Below are positions 5,190-61,289 of a stretch of 64,000 nucleotides of DNA, piece by piece. Positions within the stretch are counted from its first letter, which is position 1. Every line of letters begins with the position of its first letter. The stretch is from Ptychodera flava (taxonomy: Eukaryota > Hemichordata > Enteropneusta > Ptychoderidae). The DNA lies in the NCBI RefSeq assembly GCF_041260155.1, contig NC_091932.1, forward strand, positions 9,180,804 through 9,244,803. Direction: 5' to 3'. The translations under genes were made by a program, and so were the position numbers. The notes under the pieces were generated by a model. The model had not been told where the DNA came from. It was given only the letters and a program-made list of their open reading frames with translations, and did no database searches.

Positions 5190-5201
5190 GAACACCCGTG
5201 C

Positions 5202-16290: not shown

Positions 16291-16292
16291 GA

Positions 16293-17960: not shown

Positions 17961-17984
17961 CAGAGGATCGAAATAGATAGAAGC

Positions 17985-20660: not shown

Positions 20661-20664
20661 AATA

Positions 20665-20957: not shown

Positions 20958-20960
20958 TTG

Positions 20961-21090
20961 GCCACAGGCGTTTGGCACATTGCTGGGATAATAATCGTAT
21001 TTAATATGTAGAATGTCTATATACGACTTGATTATTCAGAAAAAGAATCACCGTACGTGAGATATTGATGTAGGCCTATAGGCCTACATG
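20961..21090 (+). repeat. Left terminal inverted repeat of the giant element
   Basis: Begins GCCACAGGCG and ends TAGGCCTATAGGCCTACATG. By eye it differs from the reverse complement of 56725-56855 by about four substitutions and one indel. Confidence 0.88.
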
Positions 21091-21505
21091 TTGCTGCGAA
21101 TCCGTAGCCTCTACCACTCGGGTAGGTTGGTCATTGGAGTGGTAGGGCTACGATGTGTAATACGCAAATATCGCACAGGATACGGCCTCGGCCAGAAATT
21201 TTCAAAGGCACAAATTTGACATAACTTTTCAAAAGGACCGTGTCCGGTGTTCATATAACCTACCCGCTCAATAATTACTCGGTATTTGTCATTTTCTCTC
21301 CTCCAAATGGATTTTTCGCAGCAAGACCGACGATCGCCTTGCTTAACCGCCATCTTGAATTTAAAGCTGCTTGACCCATGACGTCATGCAAGTCTCGCAA
21401 GTTCCCGTTCCTACTTCATTTGCATTCAGATATGAACAAACAACATGTGCGCTGACTAGTATTGCTGTCTCAGCATCGTCGGCTACGTTATGCGAATTTT
21501 CGCAT
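21091..21505 (-). promoter_or_regulatory. Left inner module (t2-b2-b1) with full CRE, upstream of the RecQ-like gene
   Basis: Reverse complement of the left half of the internal module at 46880-47320. It contains TGACGTCA (21379-21386), the full cAMP-response element, and a conserved ATGGCGGTT start at 21353 on the minus strand, which may open a leader exon or short protein. The RecQ-like gene begins 180 bp further in on the other strand, so the segment looks like a divergent promoter. Confidence 0.55.
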
Positions 21506-21684
21506 GGTAAAAAGTGAATGAACAGAAAGCAAATAACTTTAAACTTTAAAATTGTGAAAAAATATGAAATATGTTTATAAATAAAATAAATTGTTTAATG
21601 ACACTAAACTTGTCCAACTATTATCCATCATGCAAATTATGCGAATTATGTTAAATTCCCCAGAGAAATTTTACATCATAGATC

Positions 21685-24681
21685 ATGATGTTCTCCATCA
21701 CAGAGGTTAAATCTTTGTTTGATCTGCATTTGGCAGAAAAGTTTGGGTATCATCTTAAAGATGAACAGTCTCAAATTATTACAAATGTGATGAGTCACAA
21801 AAATTCAATGGGCATACTCCCCACAGGATATGGAAAGAGTGACATGTATGTCATTCCTCCACTTTTACTAGATAAGGTCAATCCCTTGATTCACCATATT
21901 GCAATAGCAGTAAGTCCACTTAAAAGGTTAGTAATCGCCAAGTAAACACTTGTTCTCAGAAGGGGATCAAGTGTGCTTATACTATTAACCAAGAAGAATT
22001 AGACCAAGAAAATATAGATGGTAAGTACAAGGATAGTTGAACCAAGTGCATCTTAAGATATTTTATAAAACATCCCATTTTCATTTTCTATTTCACCCTT
22101 TCTATTCAATCAAAAGACAATTACTAAAACAAATTGTTTTTCATACATATTTTCATTTGTTCACCCTTTTTTTGCATTAAGAAAAAGTACTTCACAGCTT
22201 AGAAAACACCAAAAGTGAATAATTACCTAACATGGGATCATTTACATATACTTTTGTTCATATAATGTACTCTTTTGTTTGGCTATTAAAATATGAATGG
22301 ATTTATAAAAAAAAACAGGGTGGCCCACCCCTATAAATTCCCTCTCAGAGAACCTGTGAACTTTTTTCTAACCAGCATAAACTGTCATTCTAGGTCTTCA
22401 ACAGGGACAGTTTAGTATTGTCTTTTTGTCACCAGAGGCAATATGCAAATGGAGAAGTGGTCATTTCTGTTTGAAACAGATGCATATAAGAAGGGGTCTG
22501 CCTAATGGCAATTGATGAGGCACATGTGATGTATACATGGTTGTATTGATTTAAACATTTATAGTTGTATTTATTCACATTCTTGTTTTTAAACTCTATA
22601 AATATCTATTTTCATGTATTAATGGACAATTTTGACTCTGCGGATTATTTGTTAGCAGTCAACTAGTGTTCTTTCCAGAGCAATTACAGAGCAGTTGCCA
22701 CCGTTCAGTAACTTTTGGAAAACCAAAAACCTCATTTACATACAATTACCTATACTGTTATGCAAAGTTATTAAAGGGACAAGTCAATAGCTTTTGACAT
22801 TATCTTAGACATTTTCTTTTCCTGTGGGAAGTTATGTATGTTGTTTGGCATTGTAACACATACAGAACCACCAGACTTTCAGACTTTTACCTTGTTGATA
22901 TAACGTTAAAATTCTTGGATGACATAATTTAGGGGAGGCTACCAGAAATCATAACATTGGTATATTTACATACCCATATCAAAGCTTATTTAGAGCTCTA
23001 ATGAAAAATTAATAGCTCGTAGTGGGCTAAACAATATGAATGACTTCTCGCATGTAATTAGAATATTAAATAATAATAATAAAAAGACAGTGACTTTATC
23101 ACTTTTGTACAAAGACTCATCTTTTTACTGACAAACTTACGTAATTTCAATTTCAGGGGCAATACATTCAGACCCATCTACAAAGAAATAGGAGATGTAA
23201 GAAGTTTTTACACTAGAGCAAGTGTGCTTATCCTAACAGCAACATGTACTGAACCAATCAAGCATAACATTTTGAAAACAATGGGCCTTGCTGAAAGTGA
23301 CATTCAAGTTGTTGCAAAACATCCTGACAGGTAAATATATGTTTCTTCTGAATGAATCAGCCATTTTCTTAATAAAAGATTAATATTCAACTGACTGTAA
23401 GAGGATTAATATTTTTTTCACAGACCCAATATCTACATGACATTAAAAGCAGAATCAGGGATGGAATTTAGAGAAGAAATTGTGTGGTACACCAGGGAAC
23501 TCAAGGAAAATGGAAAGCAGGCAAGAAAATGCATCACTTATGTCAGGTAATAAAAGATTATAGCAATACCAGAAATAATTAAAATTTGGGAATTATACAT
23601 TCTTGCTGGCTTAAGAAGACTCACCTTTTTTCCAAAATTTTTACTCGTCATTATAGTTTTGACTGTTTTCTAGTAGTCTTTGGTATCTTTTTAACTGTAG
23701 TGTAGAGCAGTACAGCGCAAAGAGATATTTGTCGTGTTTCTTTTTTTTATAAATTAAATATTATTATTATTAGTAGTAGTAGTAGTAGTAATACAAGTTT
23801 AGGGGCTATAAGTCATGTATAGAAATCTAGTAATGGAATTTTGACGGCCAAATGGTAGCCATCAAGATCTCAGTGTGCTTATAAAATGGATGAAATATTT
23901 GAAATAACAAACATCAATAACCTTTATGTTGTAAGTTTGATGACTGTCTGTGTTCATGTTGTGCTGATTTTAAGAAAAATATAATTCTGATGGTCTAAAT
24001 GGTTGCCAAAGAAACCTGTGATTATAAAATAGATGTAATATTTGAAATGACAAACATCAGTCAGTTAGTCAATTCAAAATGAATTGTGTGTTTCGATTTA
24101 AGGAGCATTATCAAGCAGGAAAGCTATGGAAGTACCTCATGTGCAGCCTTGGTGAAAAGGCATATATCACCAATATCCAATCGGTTGAAAACAGAATGGT
24201 TGATCTATACCATGCCCAACTTGAGCCAGAAGACCAAAGACGAATTTTAACTGAATTTTCAAGCGTGAGTAGTAACATCAGATGCGTTGTTGCTACAATG
24301 CTTTCGGACTAGGTATTAATATACCAGACATTGAGATAATCGTACATTGGGGTCCCAGTAACAATATTTTACAATATTGGCAGGAAGTGGGGCGAGCGGC
24401 TAGGGGACCCGACAGGAAAGGTCAAGCACACTTGATGCATAAGAACTGATATTCATCAATGTGATGATGACATGCAAGCTCTATGTAATGGTTTTATTAA
24501 AGGTAAACTAGCTTGTCTGCGCATGGAAGTAATGAAAGCTTTAACTGTAACAGGCATGTGTCCAGACTATTTGAAAACACTTGCCGGCAAACCACCATGT
24601 GACAGGTGTTGTGTGAAATGTACCTGCAGATACTGTGAATGTTGCTCTCTATGCAAAGCATCATGTCCATGTCAGAAGTAA
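21685..24681 (+). pseudogene. RecQ-like DNA helicase with C-terminal cysteine cluster, frameshifted
   Basis: Exons 21685-22020, 22394-22539, 23157-23330, 23424-23546 and 24103-24681, with GT-AG borders and consistent phases (TG|G at 22539/23157). Motif I is GILPTGYGKS; motif II is MAIDEAHVMYTW; then TFRPIYKEIGDVRSF, LILTATCTE (motif III), KHPDRPNIY, and in the last exon IRCVVAT, GLGINIPDIEIIVHWG and YWQEVGRAARG (motifs V-VI). The tail has a cluster CDRCCVKCTCRYCECCSLC and CPC. RecQ enzymes unwind DNA 3'-5' using ATP. Frameshifts near 21925, 22450-22500 and 24295 break the frame; early stops follow. Located just inside the left end of the giant element and transcribed inward. Confidence 0.83.
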
Positions 24682-25488
24682 TAATTAAGACTACAACAAA
24701 ATTAGTTTCACACATGCTGATTTCATTGAGTCATTATATCAACAGTATGTACCACTCTCAACAGTCATCACAGGAAGAGCGCATAACCATACCATTTTGA
24801 CAGTCGCTCCATTCAGATAAAAAAGCTTCTCTGGTTTCTCTGGTTTTGCTAAAAATAACCTTGCTTAATTAAGGTAGTAGACTATGCATGTCAACAACAA
24901 TAGTGACCATTGTATTGCATGTAGAAATGTCAGAAAACACACATAGTTTTTTCATTTTCATGATTTTCACAAATGATTAATTGCAATATCCTTTATTAAA
25001 AACGTACAACAAACACAATGTCACCATGCTTCAGTGATTTTTTGATAGCACCATAAATGTATCTTTTCCATTGACAAAATATTAACATAAAAAGCACCGA
25101 CTCAGCATTTTGTTGGCTGTCAGCATTATAGCTGTATCCTTGTTACATGAGAAGTAACTTTATATGTGTTAGTTCAACTGAAAATACAATATGTAGAGAA
25201 TTCTTAGAAGCAAAAGGAAAGAACATTTAATTATCCCACACAGCCTTCATTTTAAAGGGGTAAATGTAATGCTCAAAGTAATAGGATGATAGGTGATTAA
25301 ACATAAATTATCTCAAAAAGTAGAAGGAAACCCCATTTTTCTGGTCATATCATTCTGGTTATAATTTCTAGAAAAATGACAATATTCTTAGTAATGGGTA
25401 GTCACTCACCTTAACATAATTTTATGATTTGGATCAAACATAGTCTGACATCATTGAAAGAATCACCGACATTGTACTTGCACTATTA
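24682..25488. other. AT-rich non-coding interval after the RecQ-like gene
   Basis: No ORF, repeat or element end recognised. Confidence 0.5.
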
Positions 25489-26464
25489 GGGACTGGTCAG
25501 TTTCTTCGGCCTGGGGGGGGGCGGTGGATTCATGGGGGGGGGGGGTCACCCTGTTTTTGACTTTGGTGATAGGGGGGTCACCATGTTTTTGAAATGCCCA
25601 ATAGGGGGGTCAGTGTGTTTTTGAATTTCGACACAGGCTCATCATTGCCTAAAATGCATCGTGTCAGCCACAAATTTCATCCAGTTGCATTTTTCGGCGC
25701 GCCCTTAGGGCGCGTAACTTTAATAATCAGACTTATTTTTCAGCACGCCCAACTTTAACATATCAGGCATACATATATCAGAGATATATGTATGTTCAAT
25801 ATTTTTCAGCGTGCTCTTCGAGCGCATTACTTTAATATATCAGACATTTTTCAGCACACCCTTCCTGTGCATTACTTTAATATACAAGACATATATATCA
25901 GAGATATCAGGATGTTTCATATTTTTCTCCGCGCCCTTCGGGCGCCATACTTTAATAAATGAGAGATATATGCCAGAGATATCTTGATGTTTGCTAAGTT
26001 AAAGTGTACTATTATGAAATCTGCATTTCATATGAAAAGCATGACAAATTCCTGATACTTTTCTGTTAGCTCTCTATGAGAATTCAGTATGAGAAAGCAA
26101 CATGCACAAATATCAATGTTACAAGAAAAGGTCATCTCAAACTCTGCACACATCAGATTTGGCTAAAATGCCTCTCTATTGTTCCTCAGGAGATTTAATT
26201 GGATGGCTGGCAAGTCTTAACACCCATCAAAGTTTTTGAATTACTGCTTTTTCCTGTTTGATATTAATGATTGACATCCATTTCTGTACAACAGTTCAGG
26301 ACATCTGGTTGAGCATAGAAAGTGTGAAATATATTCACAGCTCATTCAAAATGTACTGTATTCAAACTTTAAGTTGACACTTTGAAATTCCTATCTTACA
26401 ACTGACATGCCAACAATTTCATTAAAACACAGAATGACTTAAAATATAAATGTATGTAAAATAT

Positions 26465-26521
<57 letters not shown>

Positions 26522-26709
26522 CAGTATTATATTATTACATATTACAGTTGTTGCGTGCGGGGGGGTCACCCTGTTTTCAAAATTTGGAATGGGGGGTCAC
26601 CCTGTTTTCGAAATTTGGAATAGGGGGGGTCAGCCACTTTTTGACGTCGGCAAAATATAATCCACCACCGCCCCCCCCCCCCCCCAGGCCGAAGAAACTG
26701 ACCAGTCCC
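25489..26709. mobile_element. Harbinger-type MITE, 1.22 kb, TTA target duplication
   Basis: Ends GGGACTGGTCAGTTTCTTCG / CGAAGAAACTGACCAGTCCC, TTA at 25486-25488 and 26710-26712. It is the same family as 10478-10861 but with about 840 bp more interior, including GCGCCCTTCGGGCGC-type mini-repeats (25690-25960) and a (TA)n tract at about 26468-26518. Inserted within the giant element. Confidence 0.88.
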
Positions 26710-26712
26710 TTA

Positions 26713-27395
26713 TGACCTTTTATTGAATGAACATGTTTTGTATCTTGAATTTTCACCTCAAGCATAGGTCCTTGTTCAAATGAGCACAATGCAGAGAAAT
26801 GGTAATTCAGTATCAAAATTATTAGATATTGTTGCAATTTGGTCAATTTATTGTGCTCATTAAGTTCTTATGATTTCTGTTTGAACGATTGTGAAAAAAA
26901 GGTTGGTCATGAGGTTCAAAAGTAACATTGTCCTATGAAAAAAAAAAGTTGGATAAATCAGTATCCCCCACTTTTACACACAATTTTTTTTCTATTTTTT
27001 CTACAACTGTGGACATGTAATGCTAAACCTTTTCAAAATACATACCACACTTAAATCAACTGTAATGTCTTTCCAGCATTCAAACTGTATGTTTGAAATT
27101 GAAAAAAAGTCATGTAAAACAAAGAAAACTTAAGATTAATAGTCGTCTATCTGTAATAATCCCATATTCACTGAAAACAACTAATATTTTAAATAAAAAT
27201 GTAAGAAATTTTGCATGTAAACCTCAAGCTTGGTGCCTTCTTGTTACATAAACATGCACTCTCTTTACTGCACTTTGCAGTACTTATGGAATGGGAAAGC
27301 TATTTGTCATTTGCTTTGATTCAAATAATCCTACCTTGCTGTTTGACTGATTGTATGACCAATGACTGACAGTCTCTGTCTCTGTCTCTGTCACA

Positions 27396-27450
<55 letters not shown>

Positions 27451-27939: not shown

Positions 27940-28169
27940 TTATGTGTCTTGAGGAAGACAGTCTCTCTCATTGTCTAAGTTCTCAGAATAGTACTCTAGC
28001 CTAGATTTGAGCTTGTGTGGATCTTTGACACCAACTCTGTGAACAAAACTGCCATACTGGCAGTGTTGTCTACCTATTATTTCATCAAATAAGTTGTCAT
28101 CCTTGTAGGTGGAAAAAACTTTGCAACGTCAGACTTGTATGATTCCTGAGTTGCTTTGGGTTTAGATAT

Positions 28170-28910
28170 GTATTTATCAACCACGTTCACACTGTATGCT
28201 TGGTCCATTCGCTGTCCCAGTGAACCCACCAGCTGGCTGCATCTTTCCACCTGCATATCAGAGTACTGGCCATGGCTGTGCTTTAGATTTTCTGTGCAGA
28301 AAAATTATTTTCATCGGAAATGAAATAATTGTCATACACAATTTTGAAATAATTGCAATACACAATTTTGCAGCTGGTGGCTTATGTCACTCGTGTTTCT
28401 CTGTTTCACAGGTATCACTGTAGGGCTATGTGCCTGCGCAGTTCAGGAGAGAAATACAAACATTTCCATCCATCAAAGTCAGATCATACCATTTAGATTT
28501 GTACAGGCCATTAAAAGGTGACGAAAACTATTGTGTATGTAAATTCTGACACCCTGACAGAAATACAATTACTAGATTTTGACAGTTAGATTTGTTGGTT
28601 GTCTCCTGAATTTAGTCAGACCAGCTAATTGGTTTAGTAGTTTTGATGTAAAAATGTAACTCAAGAGACACAACTTTACAGTGGTGGGACATTCAAGAAG
28701 GTAAACAATTTACCTCTCAAAGAAAGGAATTATTCTCTCCATAGGCTGAAACTGTCTGTCTATTGAAATAAAATAATTCTGATTTTTGTAGATTTTGCCA
28801 ATCTCATTATTGAAATCTAGGAGGCCAAAACTTATCGCATACTGACATCTTGAAATTGACAGTGTCTGGGTCACATGGCTCATTGAGCAAAATGTGACAG
28901 AAGATCACAA
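28170..28910. other. Intron between the last two recognised DUF6589 exons
   Basis: No exon, element or repeat recognised on either strand; one more small exon of the DUF6589 gene may be hidden here because the expected link between NNEFK and the last exon is short. Confidence 0.4.
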
Positions 28911-31900
28911 TACCTTTAAATTCATTATTGAGGAATTCATTGACAAGGTCAAGAGCAATATTGTGGCCAGCTCCACCATGGATATTAGCTGTTCGATTCC
29001 AAGTCATCTCGTGTGCTAACCTGGGGGACAACCATCCATTCACTCCTGAAAATGAAAAAAATGTCAACAAAAATTTTAAAATTGATGACAATGCATTACA
29101 TTTTTTATAAATTTAAGGGGGACACAGTTGCAGCATATTTGTAAGCCTTTTTTTCTGTGTTAATTTTATTTTTGGGGGGAGGGGGGTGTTGATGTTCACT
29201 GAATTAAAAAAGCTTGCTCCATATCATGTTCCTACTGTGTGTACGTGTAGCTGCGAATTTAATTGACAAATGAATTCAATCTCCAGTAATCATGCTCCAG
29301 TACAGATACAAAATCTGTATACAAGGCAGTATACTTGGCCAGTCATTGCAGCTTTTCAAAGATGAAAAATTATTTATCAAAAATCATAAAACTTACAGCC
29401 AGCCTTTAAGGAAAGCTTTATCTGATCTCAAACTTCAACAAAAACCTGGTAGATTTTTCTTATAAAATACATTAAACTAGAAATACAGCGTTACCTGAAT
29501 TTGTCCCTTTTGTCATAAATTTCAGCTGCAGTCTGGCCTTCAGAAGATTGAGTCAGAAAGCATGAAAATTCATACATGACTTTTGCCAGATTTCCCTGAC
29601 AATGAGTAATGATGTATATTTGCAATTGATCACAGTACCTGCTAGTAGCCGGGTCCAAGTATGAGATATTTTGTGTGGTGGTTCATCCAAAATCCAACAT
29701 ATTTAATCTCCAGTGAGACAGCATTGCTGGGCCATCGTTTTCCCTTTCTGCATACTCTAATGACATATGCAGCAAGCCTCTCCAAGCAAGGGCTTTGGAA
29801 TATTCAAGAACATGATCTCTAATTCTTTCATTTGGCTTTCTTGCAGACTGACAACTTAGGGAGCAGTACCATTCATCTGTAAATAATTATGTATTTGAAT
29901 GTAAATAAAAAACGTCATTTCTACAACTATATGCCCACTCTTGTGTTTTAATCCTTGCGATTTCAGTGTATTAAATATGATTCTTCATCTATGGCATCAG
30001 ACTGTTGTGCATCTGATTTGTCCCAATTAACAGCCCCATTGCTAAATCTTCATTACCTATAGCTGGTAACATTCATTTCTGCCAACATTGGAAGTGTACA
30101 TTCATGAGATGATGCTGAGTAACAATTGAGAGTGGATGTGTCCTCAAAATGAACACTGCTAGCTGTTTAAAATCTGTTTGAAGTCAAGTATCAATATTTA
30201 ACTCTTTCCTCAAGACTTTTGTTAAGACAAAGTAGAAGTAGTTGTAGCTTAAGGTTTGTTGCATAGAGCTATGACAGAAGCAGATCAAATAAGGTTACAC
30301 TACTGATGCAAAATATGTCCACTGTGATGTCACCAAGTACCTCATAAACAAACTCAGGGGTAATCTTAGTCCAAGAAAAGTTGTTTGAGAACATGACATA
30401 TTTTACATTTGAGATAGTATAATGCCATTGGAAGGTTTTGGTGTTCAGGACAAGAATATTTCACTGATACTTTTATGAAAATAGAGGAATTTTTCATTTA
30501 ATTTTGTTTTCAAAAATTATTGAGAATATAATTCATACAACTCTATAGTAAACACTCACCTGGAATTTCTGTCAATTGTTTGCATTCACAGTGAAATTTT
30601 ATGCCATACACACAATTATTAGCTGCAGAACATTCCACTAGTGGGGTGCCTGGTTTGTTTGTCTTACAACAAATGTTACATGCTGTTGGCAGTCTGGTGA
30701 ACACCACCATTCCTCATCTGGTATCATATCTGCTTCAATGTCCACACATACTATATGGTACCACCTTCCAAGGACACACTTATCACCGGCAGAACACTCT
30801 ATCCATGTGTAGCAATCAACACCTAGCAAAAGAAAAGAACAGTGTAATTATAGTTACAGATTTGGTAATAGGCCACTTTCATGACCCCTGTATGACCTTT
30901 ACATCCTGGCTTTTTTTGTTGGTATGCGTTTACCATTTTGAGTTCAAACTCTGGAACAGTTGACCCAAAAATTCAATTTATGCATTCACAATCATCCTAG
31001 AACAAAACATTAGATGTAATCAGTTACAAAAGGGAGAAACGCTAAATGTTATAGGATACCAATTCACCAAAAAGACCAGGATGTGAGTTCACTCAGGGTT
31101 AATGGCCTATTCAGGCATTTTCAACACCAATCCTAGCATAGATATGTATGGACTGTAATTGCAATCTATCATGACAGTACAACACACTCTATCTGGCATA
31201 GTACATACCTTCATCATGATCACGATACACAAATTCTCTGTCATCACTATCATCATCATTGTTTGCCTCAGTCACTTGCTGAATAGATGTCGTGTCAATT
31301 TCTGGCCACAAGAAGAATACCACTTTTTTGAAATATTCTTCATGTACTGCTTCCTTGCTGCTTTTCCATCATGGGCTGGTGAGTTCTCAGGAACACCATC
31401 CATAGTTTCCATTTGGAGAATTTTCATGGTCAGCAGGATGACAAGACTTTCAGTGCTGAAGTTAAGTAGATTGGTAACGTTGTTCACGTTGTCCATAACT
31501 CTTGCCTTCACTTGTTTGTATTTGAAAAGTGTTTTATATTGTACAGTGTGCCACTGCTACCAACACTTCTTGATGAATACAAGCAGTCCATTGTATCCTA
31601 TAAAACCCCCAAAAAATAAAACTGCTGTGAGTATAAGTGGGGTCTACTAAGGGTTTGTTTCCATGCAACTAAATTGATATCACTAAAAGAAGCATAAACA
31701 ACAAAGACAATTTTTGCTAATTTTAGTAGTGGACTATCAGTGATTGAAAAGCGTGAGCTCACAGGCGGAAGTGACATACACAAGGACATGCCATGAATTG
31801 TTCTGATGCAACTTCCAGTTTTCACCAAGTCTTTTCCAATTGTTTTACTACAGAAGGGTTGCGAAGTTTAAAACAGTTTTTCCCTATTACTCTTCCATTC

Positions 31901-32089
31901 TGATTTGCATTCATCTACTTAACAGCAAGCCATGTCAATTCAGCTGAACTTCTTGGCTTTGCTATAGCTGTCAATGTCACTATAGCATACGAGGGCTTAA
32001 TGTATTTAAGAGGCACTGTCTGTAAAAACCTGCAGAGCGCCTATATGAGGTGGCCAAGGGTAAATTTCAAAAACATATAAATTATATAC

Positions 32090-34715: not shown

Positions 34716-34813
34716 GTATGGAACGCCGTAGCTATCATAAATGCATTTTCTTTCCATTTTCAGAACTTATTTCGCATTTTTAGAACATGTTAGGCATTAC
34801 TCTCACGTCACTC

Positions 34814-35260
34814 TGCATTGAGATTATCATTTTAGGCATTTGCAATAACATTACTGACATTCAACTGATCGTGTTAGGCATTTCAAACAATGTTATAGGC
34901 ATTGAAATTATCATTTTAGGCATTTGCAATAACATTACTGACATTCAACTGATCGTGTAAGGCATTTCAAACAATGTTATAGGCATTGAAATTATCATTT
35001 TAGGCATTTGCAATAACATTACTGACATTCAACTGATCGTGTAAGGCATTTCAAACAATGTTATAGGCATTGAAATTATCATTTTAGGCATTTGCAATAA
35101 CATTACTGACATTCAACTGATCGTGTAAGGCATTTCAAACAATGTTATAGGCATTGAAATTATCATTTAGGCATTCGCAATAACATTACTGACATTTAAA
35201 TGATCGTGTTAGGCATTTCAAACAATGTTATAGACAATTAAGGTGATTGTTGAAGGCACT
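34814..35260. repeat. 84-bp tandem repeat, ~5 copies
   Basis: TTATAGGCATTGAAATTATC recurs near 34890, 34975, 35060 and 35143. Neighbouring copies are nearly identical, pointing to recent amplification. Confidence 0.92.
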
Positions 35261-35489
35261 CGATTGTTCACTTTCGGCATTTGCAATACTGTTATAGTAC
35301 TGTGCGGGCGCTGTTCTGTTATTTTAGATTGACCAACTCATTACCATGTCGATAGTAGGCTTGCACAATACAGTCAAAGTCATTCAGCTCATCGTCTTAG
35401 GCATTTTCATCATTGTAGAGCCCATTTGTGAGGGCGCTGTTCTCAACTCCGAGTCTGCGCAATAGGTCCGAATCACAGAGCACTCCCTA

Positions 35490-35605
35490 GTCTCGGTTAC
35501 CCAGACTCCTCTGCGCTACCGGCGAGACTAGTCTCGGTTACCCAGACTCCTCTGCGCTACCGGCGAGAAGCGGCAGAGGGTCTGGGTAACCGAGACTAAG
35601 CACTC
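35490..35605. repeat. Hairpin with duplicated left arm
   Basis: TAGTCTCGGTTACCCAGACT occurs twice (about 35490 and 35529) each followed by CCTCTGCGCTACCGGCGAGA; the complement GGTCTGGGTAACCGAGACTA is at about 35579-35599. Looks like a short hairpin MITE with one arm tandemly duplicated. Confidence 0.85.
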
Positions 35606-35699
35606 CCGCGAATTCCGCGCACTTTTAACCCACTTTTACTGCTATCGTCTCCAACGGGCATTCGCATGATATTGTACGCTTGAGCTCAAACTTTTCGCC

Positions 35700-43327: not shown

Positions 43328-43450
43328 CATCACCATTGTCACCATCACCATCATCATCATCATTGTCATCATCATCACCATCATCATCATCGTCGTCATC
43401 GTCATCGTCATCATCATCGTAATCATCATCATCATCATCAAATCATCATC
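43328..43450. repeat. (CAT)n trinucleotide repeat inside DUF6589 exon 6
   Basis: On the coding (minus) strand it reads mainly (GAT)n, poly-Asp in the frame that continues into GERHDEERTVGRQGRRTLFG. Upstream exon sequence is in another frame, so the repeat has slipped by a non-multiple of three. The plus-strand poly-His ORF is a shadow. Confidence 0.85.
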
Positions 43451-46400
43451 ACGACTGGCAACAGACGCAACATCTCTACTACCAACATCCACGTCATTAT
43501 TGGAAGTCAGGTTTCTCTCAACTGTTGCACCCGTTTCACAGTTACCTCTGAGCTCCATCTGTTTCACACAAAAATGATTTACACATGATTATCATTTATT
43601 CACATCAAATCACAAATGTAATAATCAATTCAAATTCAGATAGGAAAATTGTTTTGTCTAATATAATGATCTTTTGCCTAAAATAAGATATGTATACACC
43701 ATGTCACAATTTTCCACAATGTCAATTGAACATTGTTTTAAATTAAATCACTAGCACTGTAAAATACAAACTTTCGTGACATTGTGAACAACGAGCTTGA
43801 TATGAACTCTCTTAGCTAGGAAGTAACAGTGTCTTAAAGCATAGCAATTGTCATCACAGTAATAATCAGGAATTCTAAAAAACTAAATAAAGCTAAATAT
43901 AATGGTACCTCTATCTTATTCTTCATGGTACTGATTTCATGACTGTACTCTTTTCTAAGTCTGTCAACTGTGAGTCGTGTACCTAATACACCCAGGCAAA
44001 TACCAATATGTTGAAAACACTGGAAGAGCTAATAAATAAGCATTTCCTGAGAGTTAGAGTACAGTATCACTATGACTAATTAAACACGCTGTGAAGAGTA
44101 AATGACACCTCAAGGGTGGCTGTAGGCCTACAACTTGATTAGTCAGTTGCTCAAAATATTTAATATATGAAAAATATATGTATCTTTGTCAAAAGAAAAA
44201 TATGCTAATTATACGTAGAGAAAAATTCAAATCAATGGGAATACTAGAGCAGGTCATGACCTCTAACACACAAACCCAGTACCAGTAATTAGCTCAGCAA
44301 ATACCAGTGCATGCTGTTTATCTTTACATGGCTTGTTATTTCTAATTATTTCACTGGTGGCATATAAAGTAATGATTTAATTATCAGATGAAATTATCTA
44401 ATTACCTTTTGACTGCATCCACTTTTATACATTTGAATGGAATTGAATGCCTGTATCATTGAAAACTTTCTTCTACTTCTTAGGTGTAATATGATGGACA
44501 TTATTATACCAAAGGCAGGAGTCAACGTACCATATGACCCATCTTCCTGGCTGTAATAATTACATCACAAAATTTTACATTTGTAACAAATGGTTTTACA
44601 TAACATGTAAATGATGTATCACACCACAAAATCTACATACTCACATAGCAATTTGATCTGCATTTTTCTTAGTTGTAAGAGCTGATTTCATTATTGAGGA
44701 TAATAAAGGGACATCAGCTGTCATCTTGTCAATTATTGTGTTCCACCGGAAATTCTCGCAAATGTCTTTAGTGAGGAAAGTCCTCTTTCCATGTTTTACA
44801 TGATCTGACACTTCTCGCTTCACCTGTAAAAGAAAGTAAACAGAACATAGGTATAACAAGATTTACTCTTGAAACTGTCATATCACTTTAAAGCTGCAAT
44901 TATATTGACGTTTCTTTTTCAGAATTTTTTCTGTGTATCAACAGCATTTTACTGAATGTAGATAGAATACCTAGTATCACAGCTATACGTGTACATTCAG
45001 CATTATTATTGAAACTGGAACTCAAACTTGGACTAGCATTCACTTTTCTACAATTACAAAGGTATTAATCAGTGTTCTCCTCAAGGGAATGTGAGGTGCG
45101 GGTCACCCTTGTGTTTTTGAGGAATCTATTCATATGCTAACAAACCAAAAAAGATACGGTGTCATAATGAAAGAATTTATAAATGACAAATAGTTATGTC
45201 AATTGCACCCCTAGTGACTTTCAAACTGTGGAGCACAACATTCCTCATATGCAGTCTGTCCTAATAAAGAGTACTCAAACATATTCATATATTTATTGTA
45301 TAGAAATATTAACCAATAACACTTGTCACTATCCTTGCATTTATTTTTTTGTGTATATTAACATGTTTTATCACAGTGTTGATTCTATATTTTCCAAAGT
45401 CTAAAGCTGATAATCAACTAAAGACTTCTTCCATCAAAGAAGATATTGCAAGAAATTATCAGTTGGAGATTATAATATGAAATGAGCAGTAATGTCTGCT
45501 TTTGAAATACTTACCTTTTTATACACGAGATTGAAAATGCATTTTCTTGCCCGTAAACTCTTTTTGTACAGAATATTCAGAGCAGTTATATAATCATAAC
45601 CGCTTAATTGCAGCAACTGCCTTTGCAAGAAATGTAACTTTCTGTAAAAAGTAAGAAATAGAGGTTTTTAATAGTGAGAGAAATAATAGGCAAGGAAACA
45701 AAACATTGAAACCCTACTAGCAGTAACTTTGGGATGTCATTGAACTCAAAATATCTTCCTATTTGTTCTGGTTTTCTTTGAATTCTATAAGTGAAGGGAT
45801 TTATGATTTCACTTCATTAGTAAACATTTCTCAGTGAAAGACTTGATGAATATATTTAAAATCGTGAATTTTCATGAAAATTTTGAGGAGATATGTACCA
45901 TGACTTACATTACTTATTTGGGGACTGCCATTTAACTATTGGGCACTATTTTAATGTTGACCTAGTTAAAAATTGCACATTTAGTCCCAACAAGTAGTTA
46001 ATGATATGCGTATGCATACCCCTCATTGAGAAGATTCTCACAAACTTATATAATTTCTCAGGACAAGCCATAAATAATGTTACAAGATACTCAAGATAGA
46101 GCTAGTGGGGCTTTCAATACATGAGTAGCAAGTTTACAATAGATCACGTGATCAGATCATGTGACTTAAGTATATTAACCAGTTAATGTAAATATTTTAC
46201 CTTCACAATTTTTGGAGATTCCTTTTCTCTGGTCTTTTTAACCGCTCTTGGTGTCTGCGTTGGTGAAGCAATACTTCTTTTTCGTTTTCCAAACATCAAC
46301 GCATCTTCAGAAGTGTGGACACAAAACTGCTGTTCTGCATCCTCACTTTCTCTTTTCTTGTTGCGCGCTTTTTGGAGCAAGTTAAAACACACTTGACAGA

Positions 46401-47005
46401 AAAAGCGAGTCTGCTTCTCTACCCGTTTTACTCACGATGGAGCAAGTTGGCAGAAAATATCAGAAAGTGCATCTTTCACATTTTCTGTTTTGTGAATTTG
46501 CCTTCCAATGGAGACTCGTCTATAACCTTTTGCTCTCTCCTCAAAGGCTTCTCCACAGTTCATACATTTGGCCTCCATGTTTCTTAACTTGAACTGAACC
46601 AACACCCTAACTCCTTACTAAATTTCAAATGAAGGACCGCTTAAGATGTTGTTATATGCGCCTGCATTATACAACTATTTTTATACAACTATGTTTATTA
46701 TAAAACAAAAGACTCTTTCATAATATGCATGTCAAATATCCCCTCCCCCTGCCAAATTTTAAATAAAATAAAAAATAAAAAAGTGCGAAAACACAACTCA
46801 TTCCCAGTTTCTTTTCTGTTATTTTCTTTTATTTACAATATTTACATTTAAGAATACAGTTTGCTGGTCGGTTTCCGTTTTTTTGGGAAGAAAATTCGCA
46901 CAACGTAGTCGACAATGCGAAGTGTGAAAGACGATGGTCGAGCGCACATGTTTTTGTTTACGTCTGAATGCAAATGAACTAGAACGGGAATTTGCGAGAC
47001 TTGCA

Positions 47006-47013
47006 TGACGTCA
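47006..47013. promoter_or_regulatory. Full palindromic CRE (TGACGTCA)
   Basis: Conserved with the copy at 21379-21386, both in the block next to the RecQ-like and DUF6589 gene starts. CREB/ATF binding is known for this octamer; use here is inference. Confidence 0.55.
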
Positions 47014-47802
47014 TGGGTCAAGCAGCTAAAATTCAAGATGGCGGTGATTTCAAGGCGATCGTCGGAGACAGTTGAAAACACCGGCTTAAAAGTAGGTAAA
47101 CTTGAGGAATACCTAGACATCTTCCAATGGATAGATGCTAAATGGACTGTGGACCAAGTGTATGGACATTATTTCTGTAAAGATCGGAAATTTGCGTTCA
47201 AATTCGCGCCGTTCGAAATTCCGTGCGCATCGGCATAGTGCATGTGTAATACTATCCTGTGCGATATTTCAGTTCTTCACATCGCAGCCCCCACTCCCAG
47301 CAGAACACGTCAAGGAGTGGCAGGGCTCGTTTTCGCAGCAAGCCCTACATGTTGACTGGCATTATACCGAGTGGCTATGGCTGCCTGGCTCGGGCCAGGC
47401 GAACGCACTGCATAATCATCAATGAGTAGAATGTCTACATGAATTGACTATTTAATAAAGAATAACGGTACGTGATATTACTGTACATGTCGGCTAGCTT
47501 AACCGAGCGTCTGTAGCTGCTGGGCTTTGGCCCGGCTTGGGCCCGCCACTGCTGCACAGACATAACTCAAGGCGAGAAAGCTTTTCACCGCCCGATTTCA
47601 TAAATCAGCGAAATTCAGGATCTCAGAGCGTTTTCGGTGATAAAAACTGGTCACCGTCAGGCGGTTGCATAAACAATCGATCGACTGGCCTTTTACCTAA
47701 AATCATACCTTACCCTATGCTACTGGCGAGAAATCGTCCTGAAATCGGCTGGGCACACGAACCCAGCGCCGGCCATTTTGAATTGAAGACATGCAATATG
47801 CG

Positions 47803-47812
47803 CGCATGCGCA
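47803..47812. promoter_or_regulatory. NRF1-like site (GCGCATGCGC)
   Basis: Same 10-mer at 56267-56276 and 56193-56202, all close to the starts of the transposase and PIF1 genes. NRF1 palindromes are common in bidirectional animal promoters; function here is inferred. Confidence 0.5.
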
Positions 47813-47939
47813 TACAACCCTTGTCGGCCGTTAACCAGTATGTAAATTTCATGGATGAATCCAGGTCAAAGATATTGTCATGCAAATTTTCTGCTCTCAG
47901 CTTCTACAGTTGATGAAGACAATTTTGAAAATGAAGGAG

Positions 47940-50900
47940 ATGGCGGTTGCAAACGTTTCCCCTGTTACCTGGTATGTATATAAATTTGTTGAAAATCTGA
48001 ATGCATAGATCCAATTAAATCCTTAATAGATTAAATTAAATTCTTTTTAAAAATTCGATTTTGAAAATGTTCTTCAAAAACAGATTCCATGCCCTTGTGT
48101 GTGGAATATTCTGTCAGCAAATGCAATATTGTCATTCCTGCAAATTTTCACAAATACTGATTGAAGAAAAGCTTATCAATGATCTAATAATGACAACAAT
48201 GATGATTTTTAAACTCAGAGTTTATAAAACATAAAAACAGGATCATAGTGAGAATGATAGGAATGAAAAGTTCATCACAAGTGTAACTTGGAGTGAAAAG
48301 ACCAAACTAAATACATTTCACTACTCCTTGTATACATTGTAAACATTTTATGGTGGAAAATATCAGCATTTCCATATTCAATTGAAAGTAAGTTTGATTG
48401 AGCTACAAAAATGCTGTCTTGAGAGTATTTTTGGTCAGCAAGCCCAAAAATGTTTATTTCAATATTTTGCATTGCCATACAGTACCCAATTTGGGGCTGA
48501 AAATATTACTTTTTTCCTAATTCCTTTCATGCTTTTGAAAATACTATTGATTGCTATGGAAAAATGATCACACCATTACCACTTTGAAGAATTAACTTTA
48601 TCAACACAAACATTTTACTTTAAGGGTATTTTTAGTTTAGCAACCTAAAAAGTCAGGTCTATTTCAATTTTATATGTTTCCATGGTGACAATATCAGGCC
48701 TCAAAATATTTTTACCATAGAAATGTTTTTAAAAATGCAGTACAATATCATGTTGATTATAATGTGTCATGTTTTCATGGTTAGCATTTGAGGCTGACAA
48801 TTTGAGCTTTTCTTATAATATAATAATAATAATAATAATAATAACAATAATAATAATAATATTTTATTGGTCCACAACACACTGAGGTAGTGTATGATAA
48901 TAGGCTAAATTTAAATAACAATCCCCAGTCACAACATTTATCACAGAGCTTGTGGGTGCTGATATAGGAGGAAATACTAGCTACATATTTAACAATAGGT
49001 AAACATATAAGTGAATTGATCCTTTCAAGTGTACAAACAACCTTGCAATGTTTCATTTATTTAACTTATTATTTTACAAATTAAAAATACCCTGTATAAA
49101 TTATAAATTGAGCAAGCATGTTTGGCAGATCCAGTCAACCTCTTCCATGTTCTCTCCTGTGATGCCAATACAACTGAAATGATACCAAATTTGACAAACG
49201 TCGCAACATATAGCATTAGAGAGACAATTGCACTGGCATGTACCACAAGGCCACTTTACTGCTTTCTTTTAACTCTTTTCATACTCTGTGAACAACTTCT
49301 CCTCTTGCCTTGATTAGTGGTGTCTATACCGATATGTTCAATGCTATCACATATTTTGTTTTCCAGTTCCTGTTGTTCACTAACACAGTGTTTGTCAGTG
49401 TCTGTGTCGTTGCACGGATGTTGTGTTTTTTCTGTCTGTGGCATATGACTTGGCCCTGGTTGATGTTCAGTGATTGTATGATTTGTGAGTGATGTCATCA
49501 GTTCTGATGAGGCAAGTTTCTCAGGAGATGGTACATTTTTGCTCGTTGCTATTGCAGTTTTTAATGCTGCTATCATTAGTGACTTGGTTCTCTTCTCTGA
49601 CTTTGGAATATTGTAAGCCTGGCAAAGAAATCCCAACTCATTTTTTTTTTTCATTTTCATGACCTCAAGAAAAACTGTGTTTGATGCTAGCTCTGACTGA
49701 AGCCTTAGATGAGACAATTGTTTATTATCACTTTTGTCATTCTGTATTGTTTGAAATGTGAATTCTGACTTATTGGCTGTTGTTGCTCCTCTTATTTTTA
49801 TTTGCTTTCGATGTGCCTCTTTCTTTGACACATTTAGTTTTCTCATGTAATCTCTTCTGAACTGAGCTGACGACATCCGCAGATATTTTGCAACTGTTTC
49901 ATAGAAAAGGTTGTATATGATATCTGCCCCATCACATACACTACTAAGGACACCATGTATGTTTAAATCAAGTGAAATGCTTGTCTCTGTGTGCGTTGAC
50001 ACCGTTTGGAACAATTTAGTCCATGTACCATACAGAGTTTGGTCCCCTGTCACTTCATCTTTAATAACTGATAGAAATTCTGACCATGAGTGTGAAAATT
50101 TCTTTCAGTCTCAAGTTTGCGGAGTTGACAGTCTAATTTCAAAAAGAAATCATAGGCCTCATCACTGATATTTGTTAGACTTTTCTGAATATTTTGTTTG
50201 CGATTGATTTCCTCCAATGAATCTTTATGTTTTGAAAACTGTTGTAAGAAATATTCATCTTCCTCCAATTGTTCAATATATCTCACACATTTATCGGCAT
50301 GGTTTGCCTTACTTCGGCCATTCTGTGAATACAAGGATCTTTTTACTTCTTGTTTTTTCAAGTACTTTATTTTTGCAATACACCAGCCTCCAATATACCT
50401 GATTTTACCTCTCCCTCCCTCAGAATTACTGTACATTTGACCAGTATCTTGTTCACCCCTTTCCAGATATGCTTTAGCACTTTCCTCTACAACTTTTTCC
50501 CTAATCACAATAGCAACTTTCCACGCTGCATTGTATTCTTGTTTACCCAGGGTTTTCTTCTGAAATAAGAGGGAAACTTCTGACAAATACTGTTCACTGC
50601 TTAAAAAGTTGTCAATCTCAGCATAAAGTTCTGTAAAGTGTTTATTCTGTGGGTTATCATGCATAAGAGTCTTTCTCTCATCAGGTTGTTAAAAGAGTAC
50701 CATACCATGTAACAGAACCGTTGCAAATTATTGCTGCTTTGTATTTCATGAAAAGCAGAGTTAAGTCCCTTTGGCTGTCAAGTTTGGGGTTATTATAATG
50801 CAACCCTGTTGTTATGTCCTGCAAACTTATGTAATCAGGTAATTTGTATTGTCCAGTGTCAGTGTTCTCACCAAACAGCTGATCAGATGATTGGTCTGCT

Positions 50901-53900
50901 TCAATGTCAGCGTTTAACGCTTTATCAAAAGATTCTGCCATACGTTCTTCCTCTAGCTCGCTGTCAGTGTCAGTATCAAACATAATGTCCTTATCGCCCT
51001 TTCCAGCTGCTGATGTACTCATGCAGGTCATTGTACAGCAACTGACATCAGCCTCAAACAATGTGCACACTCTGTTGTTAAAATTGGTCACTGTCAATGG
51101 CTGCGGTCGAAGAAGGGTTGGTTTGAAATTAAGGATTCTGAGACCTTTTTTCTCGGTTGCACGACTTATTGCAACACCCAGTTGCCCTGGTTTTGTCATA
51201 TGTCTGCAATCTACCTGCACTCTTGGTATTGACAAACCCTGGGATTTATGCACAGTCAATGCAAAGGCCAGTTCAGTGGGATTTGACAGCGGCTTGCACA
51301 CATTTTTCTTGATTTCAGGTTTATATTTCAAAAATAAGTATGGTGTGATGACAACAGTTTTCTTTATAGAAGGGAAGTGCACTCTTGGTCCTTCATTTAC
51401 AAAATCAACAACTTTACCAGTTAGTCCATTGACCAATGTATCCGTCAAGTTGACTATCAGCATCACAGGTGCATCTTTCTTCAAGTATAAAGTTCCTGGA
51501 GCTTGAAAGTTATCAATGTATCTCTGTTCACCATTGTCAACAGCTTTATAACTTTTCATTTCCCCTGTTGAGAGAAAAAGTAAAAGATGATAAGGAAGAG
51601 TTATTTTACAGTTTGATCAGTCATAGAATCGATCATTATGATAATGAAACATACTGGCTTAACAGATAGATGATTGTGATAGCAAATGGAAATGAAACTG
51701 TTTTAAAACTGTTATCATAGGAAGCAATGAAATAGGGTGCAGAGTCTATGATAATACTTTTAATATCATAAAGAGAGAATTTTATGTATTTGAAAATTGC
51801 GATAACCTGTCCCCATCACCTACTTTATTAAGGGAACATTAGCTGTAATTATTGATAATTATTTTTCTGCCTTTTACTCTCTTTACTAAACTTAAATTTA
51901 ACTCCCAAGAGCATGTTGAGTTACTCAGAGTTCAGCTTTTGAATACGGCATGTCTGGGGGTAGAGCACACTGGTAGTGTTTACATTTGAATGTTATTCTT
52001 GAAATAAAGCTCTTCTGTCAACAATAACAATGTTCTTTATGATATGTTTGATAATTAAATATGTTTTTGAGCATGGACAAGAAAATGGAGTAAGCATATA
52101 GATCAAAAGCTCTTGAAACATTATCAAAAGTTATAGCCACTGTCCCTTTAATGGTCAGTTTCTTTATGTAAAATTGAAATAGTTTAATTTTTCTTCTTTT
52201 ATTGCAACAGGTGCTTAAGAAACCTTGAAGAAAGTGAATCAAGCAAGGTGAAAAAAATGGATGTATGGGATGCTTATCTGACAGCTGTCACCAACTCTGA
52301 TACAAAAGTAAACAAGATTACTTTTCCAAAACTTTTGAATGAACTGTTTGCTGTTAAAAGTGCCAGAACTGTTGATGGATCTACTGGAAGAGTAAATTAT
52401 GTTTACAGTGGCCTAAAGTTCACTGGTGTTAATGAAACCAAGGCAGATCTGCTACCCCTGGCTGATATTGCAAAGGTGCTTCCAACAAATGTAGTTCAGA
52501 TACCAACAGATTCAGTGGATGTTGTAAAGTTTGGTGTACTATCCAATATCCTTTGCAATGGTAATCAAGTCATGAAAACATTCACATTTTCTGACAAAGA
52601 TTGGAAACTTCAAGTTCGCAGTGAGGATATTCCCCTCAACAACTTCCTTATTTCCAATACCTTTAGACCCACCAAACATCAAGTACAAGTTGTGTTGAAG
52701 ACGGTGTGCAAAATCAAACTCTGCACTGGTGTTGTCATTGATAAGGAAAAGGCACATGCTACAACCACAGTGATACCAGAATTCTACAATACTACTGATG
52801 GGATGCAGCATGATGAGTGTCGGATGCGGAGTACAAACTGCCAACAGGTGTTACCGTTTACATCTATAAGTTTTGCTTGTCACAAATGCCAGTTTGCTGT
52901 TTCAAAGTTCACTGCATCTTCCAAAAATTTTGATAAGACTGAAACAGCTACCTTAGCAGAAGAAGATGCAAAAGTGTTATTAGTAAAAGAAGATCATAAA
53001 GACATGGAAGAAATGCTAGCAACAGTTTTTCCAAATGCATCAGGAGAGATGAAGGCCTTATTGATAAACCAACACCAGGCGCTCACATGTAAGAGTCCAA
53101 AAGCTCGGCGATGGGATCCAAAAATCATCAGAAATTGTCTGACACTGTGGGCAAGAAGTCCTAATGCCTATCAAGATTTAATTGACAGCAGAATGTTGAT
53201 TTTACCATCTGGAAGACTCTTACAGTACTATAAAAATTGTGTACCACAGACCAGTGGAATTAATGATGAGATGTACGAGTGGATGTACAAATCTGCCAAG
53301 GAAACAAACATTGCACCTCCAGGAATGCATGGAGGATTAATTCATGATGAATGCAAGATACAAGATGACTTGGTGCTTGAAAGGAAAGGCAGTGAAGTTA
53401 AATTGATTGGATTGGTTGACCTGGGCGAGGAATCATTCAATTTGTCTGTGATAAGAAACAAGGGTGTCACACGCAAACTGGCCACAGATGCATGGCAAAT
53501 CATATTTCTTGGTCACACTGGATTTCGTTTTCCATTAGCTCACTTCCCCACCAATGGCGTAAGAGCATGTGATATTTACATCAACATTTGGAAGATTATT
53601 TCTAAGTTGCAAGACTGGGGGTTCACTGTAGATTATATCTGTCAAGATGGAGGTGATCAAAACAGGAGTTTCACCCATATGTGTTTCAAAGAGTCTCCTA
53701 TAGACAATAGCTTCCTCAGCTCTAATTTGGTTGATCCTTCCAGGTCTATTGCTCATTGCCAGGACTTCTCACATGTCATGAAAAAGATCCGCAATGCAGT
53801 ATTATCAAGTGGCAATGAGAACCATCAAAAGAGAACCTTCAATACAGAGGACAGAACATAACATGGAAGATGTGGGTTGATGCTGCTGAATGGGACTGGA

Positions 53901-54657
53901 AAAACAATTCCAGGCCAATACACCATAAACTTACTAACAACCATCTATATCCAACACAGCCTGAAAAAATGAGAAACCACTTAGCAGAAGAAATGCTTGA
54001 TAGAAACATGCTACACCTTATGCAGTGCTACCAGTCAAGCCTTATCAAGGATGATCATCTAAATGGAGCCATATCATTATTAGAACAAACCGCATGTTTC
54101 ATTGAAGTCTTCAGGGACAGCCGCCCAGTTATCAGCACTGATGATCAACGTCTTGCAAAGTTACAAGATGTCCACTCCTGGTTCAAGGAATGGGAAGTGG
54201 CTGTCCAAACCTCAGATGAAGAAAATGTCATCAAACCTAAAATGCTGATGTCTTCACAATGCAGAGAGGACATATCATCATGCATTTTGGGATTTGTAGC
54301 AGTTTGCAAATCCTTCACTTGTGAATATCCTGGTTGGGTTTGGTTCCATCTCGATTCAATAGTGATATTGTAGAAAATCACGTGCACTTCTGTCAAGAGA
54401 GAGGGCTATTCAATGGGAACACAACAAACCCTACCTATTCTGCTTATGCAAAGACTGTTACCAGTACCATACTCTGCCAAACAACAAAGTCTAGGAAATC
54501 AAACACAAGGGGTTCAACAGTGCCATTATATTCACAAAGTTGTAGAAAGCCCCTTGTACAGAAGAAAAGACCACGGAAGAGTGTCACTGATATACAATGC
54601 CCTGCAGAGACACTTGCAAAGAAGAAAAGGGCACTACAGCCTGTCAATAGATGAAGA
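47940..54657 (+). pseudogene. P-superfamily-like DDE transposase, frameshifted
   Basis: Probable leader exon ending at 47971 (ATGGCGGTTGC start, GTATGT donor) spliced to 52211 (TTTATTGCAACAG acceptor): TG|G gives Trp in frame. The main exon runs in one frame to 53861, then changes frame near 53858 and near 54330. Catalytic-core-like features: IHDECKIQDDL (Asp367/Glu368 counting from Met at 52248), LIGLVDLGEES, ATDAWQIIFLGHTGFRFPLAHFPT, CQDGGDQNR (Asp467), CQDFSHVMKKIRNA (Asp506), then NHLYPTQPEKMRNHLAEEML and PSRFNSDIVENH. Order and spacing recall P-element/THAP9-type RNase H folds; no THAP domain seen. Would catalyse DNA cutting and joining. It lies inside an intron of the opposite-strand PIF1 gene. 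Confidence 0.65.
47972..49255. other. First intron of the transposase; non-coding, with (ATA)n
   Basis: No gene before the PIF1 stop at 49256. An (AAT)n-type microsatellite lies at about 48819-48861. Confidence 0.5.
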
Positions 54658-56112
54658 GATGAACCTTGAAAAACCAGGAACTTGTCTTAAATTAGATATC
54701 AGTAAAAATGAATAAGCTTTGACTTTAAGCATTTTTTCAATATTCTGGTTCTGCTTATCACCTACATTTCATTGTTCTACTCCAAATAGCATGCTCTTAA
54801 ATGTGTCCAGCATCCTGTTTATCAATCAAATGTATTGCATCATATTACTGTACAAGTAATCATCATTAAATCCATGAAGAGGAGAATTCAAAGAATTTTT
54901 TACCATTCATTTTTTGTCTGATGAATTGCATCTTAATGCTCTTTGTCTATGATTGCATATTGTTTGGATACTTACCTTAGCATAATCTGTTGTTGCTCAT
55001 AAATTACACATAATTTTCAAAATATTTCAGTGAATTCATTTTTTTAGCTTGGATGATATCACTGAATAGTATTTTAGCCCGACTGTTTAAATGAATTTTA
55101 TGCATGTAGCTTAAAGTGTGCTAATCAGGAATTATTTATCATACATGTTACTACTGCTTCATTAAATCTTACAAATATTTTGTTTCAGTGATTTATTATG
55201 TGCAAATCAAAATGAATGTTCTTAATTTTCATCTTGGCAGTAAAAGTTGTCATTTGCAGTAAATACATGTAGTAAGAAATAAGTATGTTGTATTTTTAAG
55301 ATGGATGTTTCAATTAAAATTAGATTCAATGCTCTTTTTTCACTCTATTTTGGAGCTATACAAGAGGTACTCACCAGGCATATCCAACAATAGTTCTGAA
55401 TTTGTCTTGTCAACATCATAATTCAGCGCATAGAGTAGTGTAGGTCGCTCTCCAGGTGGCAGTGGCCTTGAAAGTCTGTACATCAAATTGATTGTAGACT
55501 GTGATGCATTTCCTGCAGCTATTTCATGAACTGCTGTAATCAGATCATCATCCCTCTGTCGATGAATTTTTGTCAAAGTTATCACATGTGGTATAGCCTT
55601 CTCCCACAGTTCAGTTTCAAAAGCATATTGGCCCTTATCTCCATAGGCTGCATTTGGTACTGGAGGCAGTTGATTAAAGTCACCAGACACGATACATTGT
55701 ACGCCGCCAAAAGGCAAATTGCTATTTCTCACAGTTCTAATAACAAGATCTAGCTGATGAAATATAGATGCAGAAACCATGGAGATTTCATCTATTACCA
55801 GCGTATCCATACGTTCTATCTTTTGTCTTACTGTTGTCATCTCATCACTTCTTGTTACCCGTTGACCAGCTCTTCATCTGTGAAACGACCATCTAACAGT
55901 CCAGCAAATTGGTGGATTGTTGTAGCTTGAAAATCTGCAAATTGTGTGGCAGCTATGCCAGTGCTTGCAGTCACCTGAACATTCTGCAGCTTCTTCAGAC
56001 TTCGTATTATTTCATACAGTGTTCTTGTTTTACCAGTACCTGCTTGACCAGCCAAGAGAAAACTATGACCAAAAATGGCTTTTTTAACGGCATATTTCTG
56101 AATTCCGTCCAT
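49256..56112 (-). pseudogene. PIF1-like SF1 DNA helicase with long C-terminal extension, frameshifted
   Basis: Exon 1 56112-55375, intron 55374-51565, exon 2 51564-49256; CCT G|GG joins in frame. Motif I is LLAGQAGTGKTRT; Ia, VQVTASTGIAA; II, LVIDEISMVSA; III, IVSGDFNQLPPVP; IV region, VITLTKIHRQ. After the intron: TGKVVDFVN, LAFALTVHKSQGLS (motif V) and LGVAISRATEKKGL (motif VI). These are the PIF1/RRM3 family motifs (5'-3' DNA helicase). The extension past 50690 has no known fold but is charged and conserved-looking (TGDQTLYGTWTKLFQT, IHGVLSSVCDGADIIYNLFY). Frameshifts near 55860, 50690 and 50090 break it. Starts next to the right inner module of the giant element. Confidence 0.85.
54718..55374. 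other. AT-rich part of the PIF1 intron
   Basis: Lies between the transposase end and the donor at 55374; nothing recognised. Confidence 0.5.
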
Positions 56113-56192
56113 TTCCTCGGATTGATCATTCTATACTTAGTTTACATGTGATTACATACATTTATTACCCTATTGGAGGGAAGTTACAGCTC

Positions 56193-56724
56193 GCGCATGC
56201 GCAAATCAAATATTCCAGCAAGAGAAGGCAACTGGAAAGAAATACGTCATTTGCCAAGGGTTGTATGCGCATGCGCGCACTTTGCAGACTTCAATTCAAA
56301 ATGGCCGGCGCTGGGTTGGTGTGCCCAGCCGATTTCAGGACGATTTCTCGCCAGTAGCATAGGGTAAGGTATGATTTTAGGCAAAAGAGACCAGTCGATC
56401 GATTGTTTATGCAACCATCTGACCGTTGACCAGCTTTTATCACCGGAAACGCTCAGAGTTCGTGAATTTCGCTGATTTATGAAATCGGGCGGTGAAAAGC
56501 TTTCTGGCCTTTTCATTTTGTCTGTGCAGCAGTGGACAACGGGCCCAAGCCCTGCAGAGCTCTACAGCCACTCGATTAAGCTAGCCGATATGTACAGTAA
56601 TATCACGTACCGTTATTCTTTATTAAATAGTCAAGTCATGTAGACATTCTACTCATTGATGATTATGCAGTGCGTTCGCCTGGCCCGAGCCAGGCAGCCA
56701 TAGCCACTGGTATAATGCAGTCAA
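56193..56724 (-). promoter_or_regulatory. Right inner module (b4-b3) upstream of the PIF1-like gene
   Basis: 56257-56724 is the reverse complement of 47330-47826, including the GATTTCATAAATCAGCGAAAT-like block near 56475 and the NRF1-like GCGCATGCGC at 56267-56276; another GCGCATGCGC lies at 56193-56202. The PIF1 start codon is at 56112. Confidence 0.55.
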
Positions 56725-56855
56725 CATGTAGGCCTATAGGCCTACACTAATATCTCACGTACGGTGATTCTTTTTTCTGAATAATCAAGTCGTATATAGA
56801 CATTCTACATATTAAATACGATTACTATCCCAGCAATGTGCCAAGCGCCTGTGGC
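56725..56855 (-). repeat. Right terminal inverted repeat of the giant element
   Basis: Ends CGCCTGTGGC at 56855; inner end CATGTAGGCCTATAGGCCTA. It is followed by ATTG and the resumption of the tyrosine recombinase exon. Confidence 0.88.
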
Positions 56856-61265: not shown

Positions 61266-61289
61266 CTATGAATAAGTAGGGGGGTATAC

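Follow-up and report, generated by a model that had tools for sequence, protein, structure and literature searches.

The DNA analysed here is a window of 64,000 nucleotides from the hemichordate Ptychodera flava (contig NC_091932.1, positions 9,180,804 to 9,244,803). Between positions 20961 and 56855 of the window lie a RecQ-like superfamily II helicase gene, a ZAD-DUF6589-PHD gene, a PIF1-PHD helicase gene and a P-like transposase gene. This stretch is bounded by inverted repeats at 20961-21097 and 56717-56855, which showed 95.7% identity over 139 columns in a self-comparison of the window. The first-pass annotation had noticed these near-identical repeats and had read the full 36 kb, including the two helicases, as one giant transposon or integrated replicon. 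The self-comparison, however, showed two further inverted pairs that had been overlooked, 21327-21501 with 46890-47065 (85% identity) and 47341-47823 with 56255-56735 (90.6%). These two pairs show the stretch to be nested.

At the right end, the 139-bp repeat adjoins a 491-bp repeat to form a single uninterrupted terminal inverted repeat (TIR) of about 600 bp (56255-56853, minus strand). At the left end, the inverted-repeat comparison placed the same two TIR pieces 26 kb apart on the plus strand, a distal piece at 20963-21090 and a proximal piece at 47352-47823. The segment between them (21091-47341; 26,251 bp), hereafter element A, sits within the left TIR. It has its own ends, TTGCTGCGAA on the left and TTCGCAGCAA on the right, and the repeats at 21327-21501 (plus strand) and 46890-47065 (minus strand) are its subterminal inverted repeats. 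The outer element, hereafter element C, spans 20963-56853, starts with CACAGGCG, finishes with CGCCTGTG and is 9,630 bp long without A.

Each element is flanked by a target-site duplication. The duplicates of A, GGCCTACATG (21081-21090, belonging to the TIR of C) and GCCCTACATG (47342-47351), are identical at nine of ten positions and are flush with the 10-bp termini of A. Those of C are GC-TTGGC (20956-20962; seven bases, one missing) on the left and GCATTGGC (56854-56861; eight bases) on the right. When A and one 10-bp duplicate were removed, the rejoined left TIR aligned to the right arm through the junction. Of 597 ungapped columns 559 were identical and 38 different, with 10 gap events, the ragged end included. 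Since the left arm without A aligns across the junction, the uninterrupted right TIR of C serves as an empty-site control for A. The order of events is seen directly in the sequence: C was inserted first, and A entered C afterwards. We therefore do not recognize a single element with the strange combination of two helicases, a P-like transposase and a DUF6589 protein. The apparent 36-kb giant is almost certainly a 9.6-kb P-like element with a PIF1 helicase, C, that was split later by a 26-kb element with a RecQ-type helicase, A.

The PIF1-PHD helicase gene of C (49104-56112, minus strand) consists of an N-terminal part (56112-55375), an intron (55374-51565) with the splice sites G/GTGAGT...CAACAG/GG, a C-terminal part with an extension (51564-49259) and a single C-terminal PHD finger (49268-49104). 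Its frame changes near 55860, 50685, 50090 and 49260, by frameshifts or short introns. The P-like transposase gene (52188-54651, plus strand) is antisense to it and lies entirely within its intron. This gene has an RFX-like head and an RNase H core, with frame changes near 53830-53850 and 54330. The Pfam scores of PIF1 and of the P-like RNase H domain (PF21787) were above the cut-off, in agreement with the names that the first-pass annotation had given to these two proteins. The DDE triad and the D(2)H motif are present in the transposase, as HDE, QDGG and DFSH in 52188-53858 and IVEN in 54325-54651; the residue roles follow excerpts of PMC8230255 and PMC4168063. A fold comparison on residues 265-786 of a homologue showed the P-type RNase H transposase fold.

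No THAP domain was matched in the P-like protein of the window or in the precomputed domains of 27 homologues, four of which have no domain listed. Because a THAP domain was not found and an RFX-like head is present instead, we call C P-like rather than a canonical P element. Sequence searches of the PDB with a transposase piece and with alignment A4 gave no matches. Scans of viral contigs (with the PIF1 piece, the transposase piece and A4) and of genome contigs (with A4) found no relative, but the scanned collections contain no animal genomes, and these negatives therefore carry little weight. NCBIfam listed nothing for homologues P0005 and P0148, and RecD2-like helicases for P0029. Among the literature matches listed, none tied PIF1 to a P-like transposon by its title or the start of its abstract, Repbase Reports being outside the search. 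No literature joining RFX DNA-binding, transposase and domestication was found.

The gene interrupted by C is read on the minus strand. Its QRICH1-like N-terminal part lies in the right flank (56854-57678), where a piece at 57502-57678 matched at E 2.4e-5 and 24.8 bits, below the cut-off of 30.8. Its DUF3504-like C-terminal part lies in the left flank (20643-20955) and matched weakly, at E 0.015 alone and E 0.0048 with the flanks joined; the match rises to E 1.6e-4 when the frame is extended into the TIR of C by 12 residues (20769-21035). With one duplicate of C kept, the frame runs from a stop 15 codons upstream of the junction through VVYTLFSPPNRPAN and, past the junction, AYYLYPSTNSTATCWY. 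The frame is thus open across the junction, as expected from the earlier report of a recombinase exon continuing over the gap, although the residue before PPNRPAN is S and not C as reported. All QRICH1 and DUF3504 scores are below the curated cut-offs, and the reading as a single gene is therefore probable but not proven. On this moderate evidence, both flanks probably belong to one QRICH1/DUF3504-like gene. For C, the earlier view is supported: it is a real DNA transposon, delimited by these TIRs, and it disrupts a gene of recombinase type.

The RecQ-like helicase gene of A (21682-24681, plus strand) has several exons, placed by eye. It contains the Walker A motif LPTGYGKS, DEAH at about 22514 and QEVGRAARG. 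As the first-pass annotation had proposed, the product is RecQ-like: DEAD and Helicase_C were above the Pfam cut-off, and a search of the PDB matched RecQ-family chains (best E 2.3e-22).

The second gene of A, the ZAD-DUF6589-PHD gene (27946-46566, minus strand), encodes a putative transposase. It is colinear with residues 4-884 of P0148, a DUF6589 homologue from Saccoglossus kowalevskii (PF20231 at E 1.2e-29). A tblastn search with P0148 aligned 801 of its 884 residues at E < 0.2, in order from 46566 down to 27946. Of its 20 rows, two together hold three stops, one is weak (E 0.15) and two are secondary, between the PHD-like blocks. Pfam found no DUF6589 on the exon model of the window gene. 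A scan of frames with stops as X returned only the RecQ helicase and was empty for the three frames over 40200-46600. The GDQ and REND motifs of the family enclose PHD-like blocks; the family profile (alignment A3) had PHD fingers as its top rows against the PDB, and Pfam on P0148 alone listed no PHD. Of the ZAD-PHD-DUF6589 protein described earlier, the DUF6589 and PHD parts thus agree with the tblastn and profile matches, whereas the exon model gave no Pfam match and the ZAD is named by eye. The CWDN, GDQ and REND motifs may have a catalytic role. Genes in both elements carry frame changes or stops, and both elements look decayed, as had been suggested.

The DUF6589 gene contains a gap of 10.4 kb (42011-31627), whose contents include a 3.3-kb inverted-repeat element at about 34721-37985. 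The arms of this element carry 42-bp tandem repeats and seemingly start with GAACGCCGTAGC; no clear target duplication was seen. It represents a third level of nesting. A PLE-like label for 36.4-36.9 kb, made by eye only, was withdrawn, Pfam giving 0 families there. An open reading frame at 38654-39034 (plus strand) showed a weak C17orf113-type zinc finger (E 2.3e-4, below the cut-off) and is perhaps a relic of another transposase.

C was compared with two known groups. With the P superfamily (Drosophila P, Galileo, THAP9-like) it shares the P-type RNase H fold and the DDE triad with D(2)H. Its duplication is of the 7-8-bp length of this superfamily, with the left copy one base short and the frame open across the joined flanks. 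C differs in having no THAP match, an RFX-like head and an interlocked PIF1-PHD helicase gene. Helitrons are not known to have TIRs or target duplications. C resembles them in its PIF1-type helicase, but its TIRs of about 600 bp and its 8-bp duplication set it apart from Helitrons, and no Helitron-type Rep domain was found among the Pfam matches of the scanned C proteins. A P-like element that seems to encode its own helicase is unusual. We tentatively regard C as quite possibly an undescribed P-like lineage, perhaps spread across several animal phyla. In this lineage, an RFX-like head would have replaced THAP, and the interlocked antisense PIF1-PHD helicase would drive long gap-repair synthesis and thereby self-amplification.

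The target of Kolobok elements is TTAA. A resembles KolobokH in having a RecQ helicase next to a putative transposase, but its target duplication is GGCCTACATG and not TTAA. An excerpt of PMC9587614 describes KolobokH, with a RecQ helicase beside the transposase, as reported only from fungi, and mentions a Kolobok of a red alga whose RecQ helicase is encoded on the opposite strand. For AcademH, a 9- or 10-bp target-site duplication and an encoded helicase are given in an excerpt of PMC10045372, and DEAD plus Helicase_C is linked to AcademH or KolobokH in an excerpt of PMC10799480. A resembles AcademH in its 10-bp duplication (with one mismatch; an 8-bp parse is possible) and its superfamily II helicase. 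It may differ in its transposase candidate, the ZAD-DUF6589-PHD protein. No literature combining Academ, XPG nuclease and transposase was found. A is probably an AcademH-type transposon; the duplication and the helicase fit.

Other explanations of the locus were considered. A single 36-kb element, transposon or integrated replicon, that carries both helicases and both transposase-like proteins would agree with the outermost inverted repeats bounding the whole stretch and with the flanks rejoining in one frame. However, a segment that has ends and a 10-bp duplication of its own (21091-47341) breaks the left TIR of C, whereas the right TIR is continuous, and each helicase lies in a different transposon. 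The single element is highly unlikely and was rejected on the split left TIR. An assembly artefact joining unrelated contigs is scarcely credible. Only one assembled sequence stands behind the arrangement, but both insertions have target duplications and leave continuous sequence once removed, which a misjoin would not give. A could also belong to another DUF6589-based, RecQ-bearing superfamily. This is rather doubtful: its duplicate can be read as 8 bp and no paper naming DUF6589 was found, but the 9-10-bp duplication with a helicase partner is as reported for AcademH (excerpt of PMC10045372), and DEAD with Helicase_C is tied to AcademH or KolobokH (excerpt of PMC10799480).

It is also conceivable, but unlikely, that a third element, the P-like transposase, was inserted into the intron of a different PIF1-PHD element, to which alone the long TIRs would belong. 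Antisense nesting in an intron is indeed the picture expected of an insertion. Around the P-like gene within the intron, however, we found a single inverted 11-mer, of low complexity, against 0.66 expected (200 simple shuffles). Moreover, the 8-bp duplication of C is of P-type length, and C without the P-like gene would have no recognized transposase. Several facts weigh against the interpretation of the stretch as two nested transposons, a P-like C and an AcademH-type A. The 11-mer test is blind to degenerate TIRs, and the joint travel of the PIF1-PHD and P-like genes rests on this one locus. The fold comparison was limited to residues 265-786, with the head outside it. The RFX scores are modest, 25 bits for the window protein against a cut-off of 27, and 28 (P0005), 27.7 (P0027), 17 (P0002) and none (P0001) in homologues. 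The left duplicate of C is one base short of 8 bp. The duplicates of A mismatch at one of ten positions; parsed differently, they give an exact 8-bp duplicate, CCTACATG, and the right end of A then has two additional bases. Finally, the fold prediction of DUF6589 had a mean predicted local distance difference test (pLDDT) score of 49.5, with none of 120 structure matches at E <= 0.001.

C, a P-like cut-and-paste element, entered the probable QRICH1/DUF3504-like gene with an 8-bp duplication, and A later entered the left TIR of C with a 10-bp duplication. Each transposase-like protein would act on the ends of its own element; the P-like enzyme would cut the ends of C and join them to an 8-bp staggered target. 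Cellular Pif1 acts in D-loop extension. By analogy, the PIF1 protein of C may help to fill in the gap at the donor site, with the sister as template. The self-encoded helicase would extend the repair D-loop over the gap and rebuild the excised copy, and cut-and-paste would become copy gain. A may work likewise with its RecQ-like helicase. The PHD fingers may tether or steer the complexes to marked chromatin.

The striking claim of a giant element is thus corrected: a nested pair mimics one element, and the intact opposite TIR provides a built-in control. Two unrelated DNA transposons share the locus, and both have a helicase, of the PIF1 type in C and of the RecQ type in A. With this pair, the question of why certain cut-and-paste elements carry helicases becomes testable. 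DUF6589, an uncharacterized Pfam family, is now tied to a helicase-bearing animal transposon. The remaining interest lies in a P-like element with an RFX-like head, no THAP match and seemingly its own helicase.

Other repeats surround the two elements. A direct repeat of about 2 kb (16292-18211 and 58562-61278; 89-94% in pieces) flanks the interrupted gene and C. Without C, its copies would be about 4.5 kb apart; either a duplication or the terminal direct repeats of an older element may explain them. A foldback-like element at 10230-11341 has inverted arms of about 240 bp (86%), and its middle is partly repeated at 25488-26713 inside A. An open reading frame at 3857-4672 (minus strand) matched the RAG1 importin-binding domain (E 4.1e-9) and RING; it corresponds to the N-terminal region of a RAG1-like protein, which may come from a RAG-like transposon. 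Gypsy-type retrotransposon-like pieces are present at 5169-7095 (plus strand), with an integrase C-terminal domain by Pfam; reverse transcriptase and RNase H were recognized only by eye. At 61555-63360 lies a tandem array whose unit measures about 387 bp.
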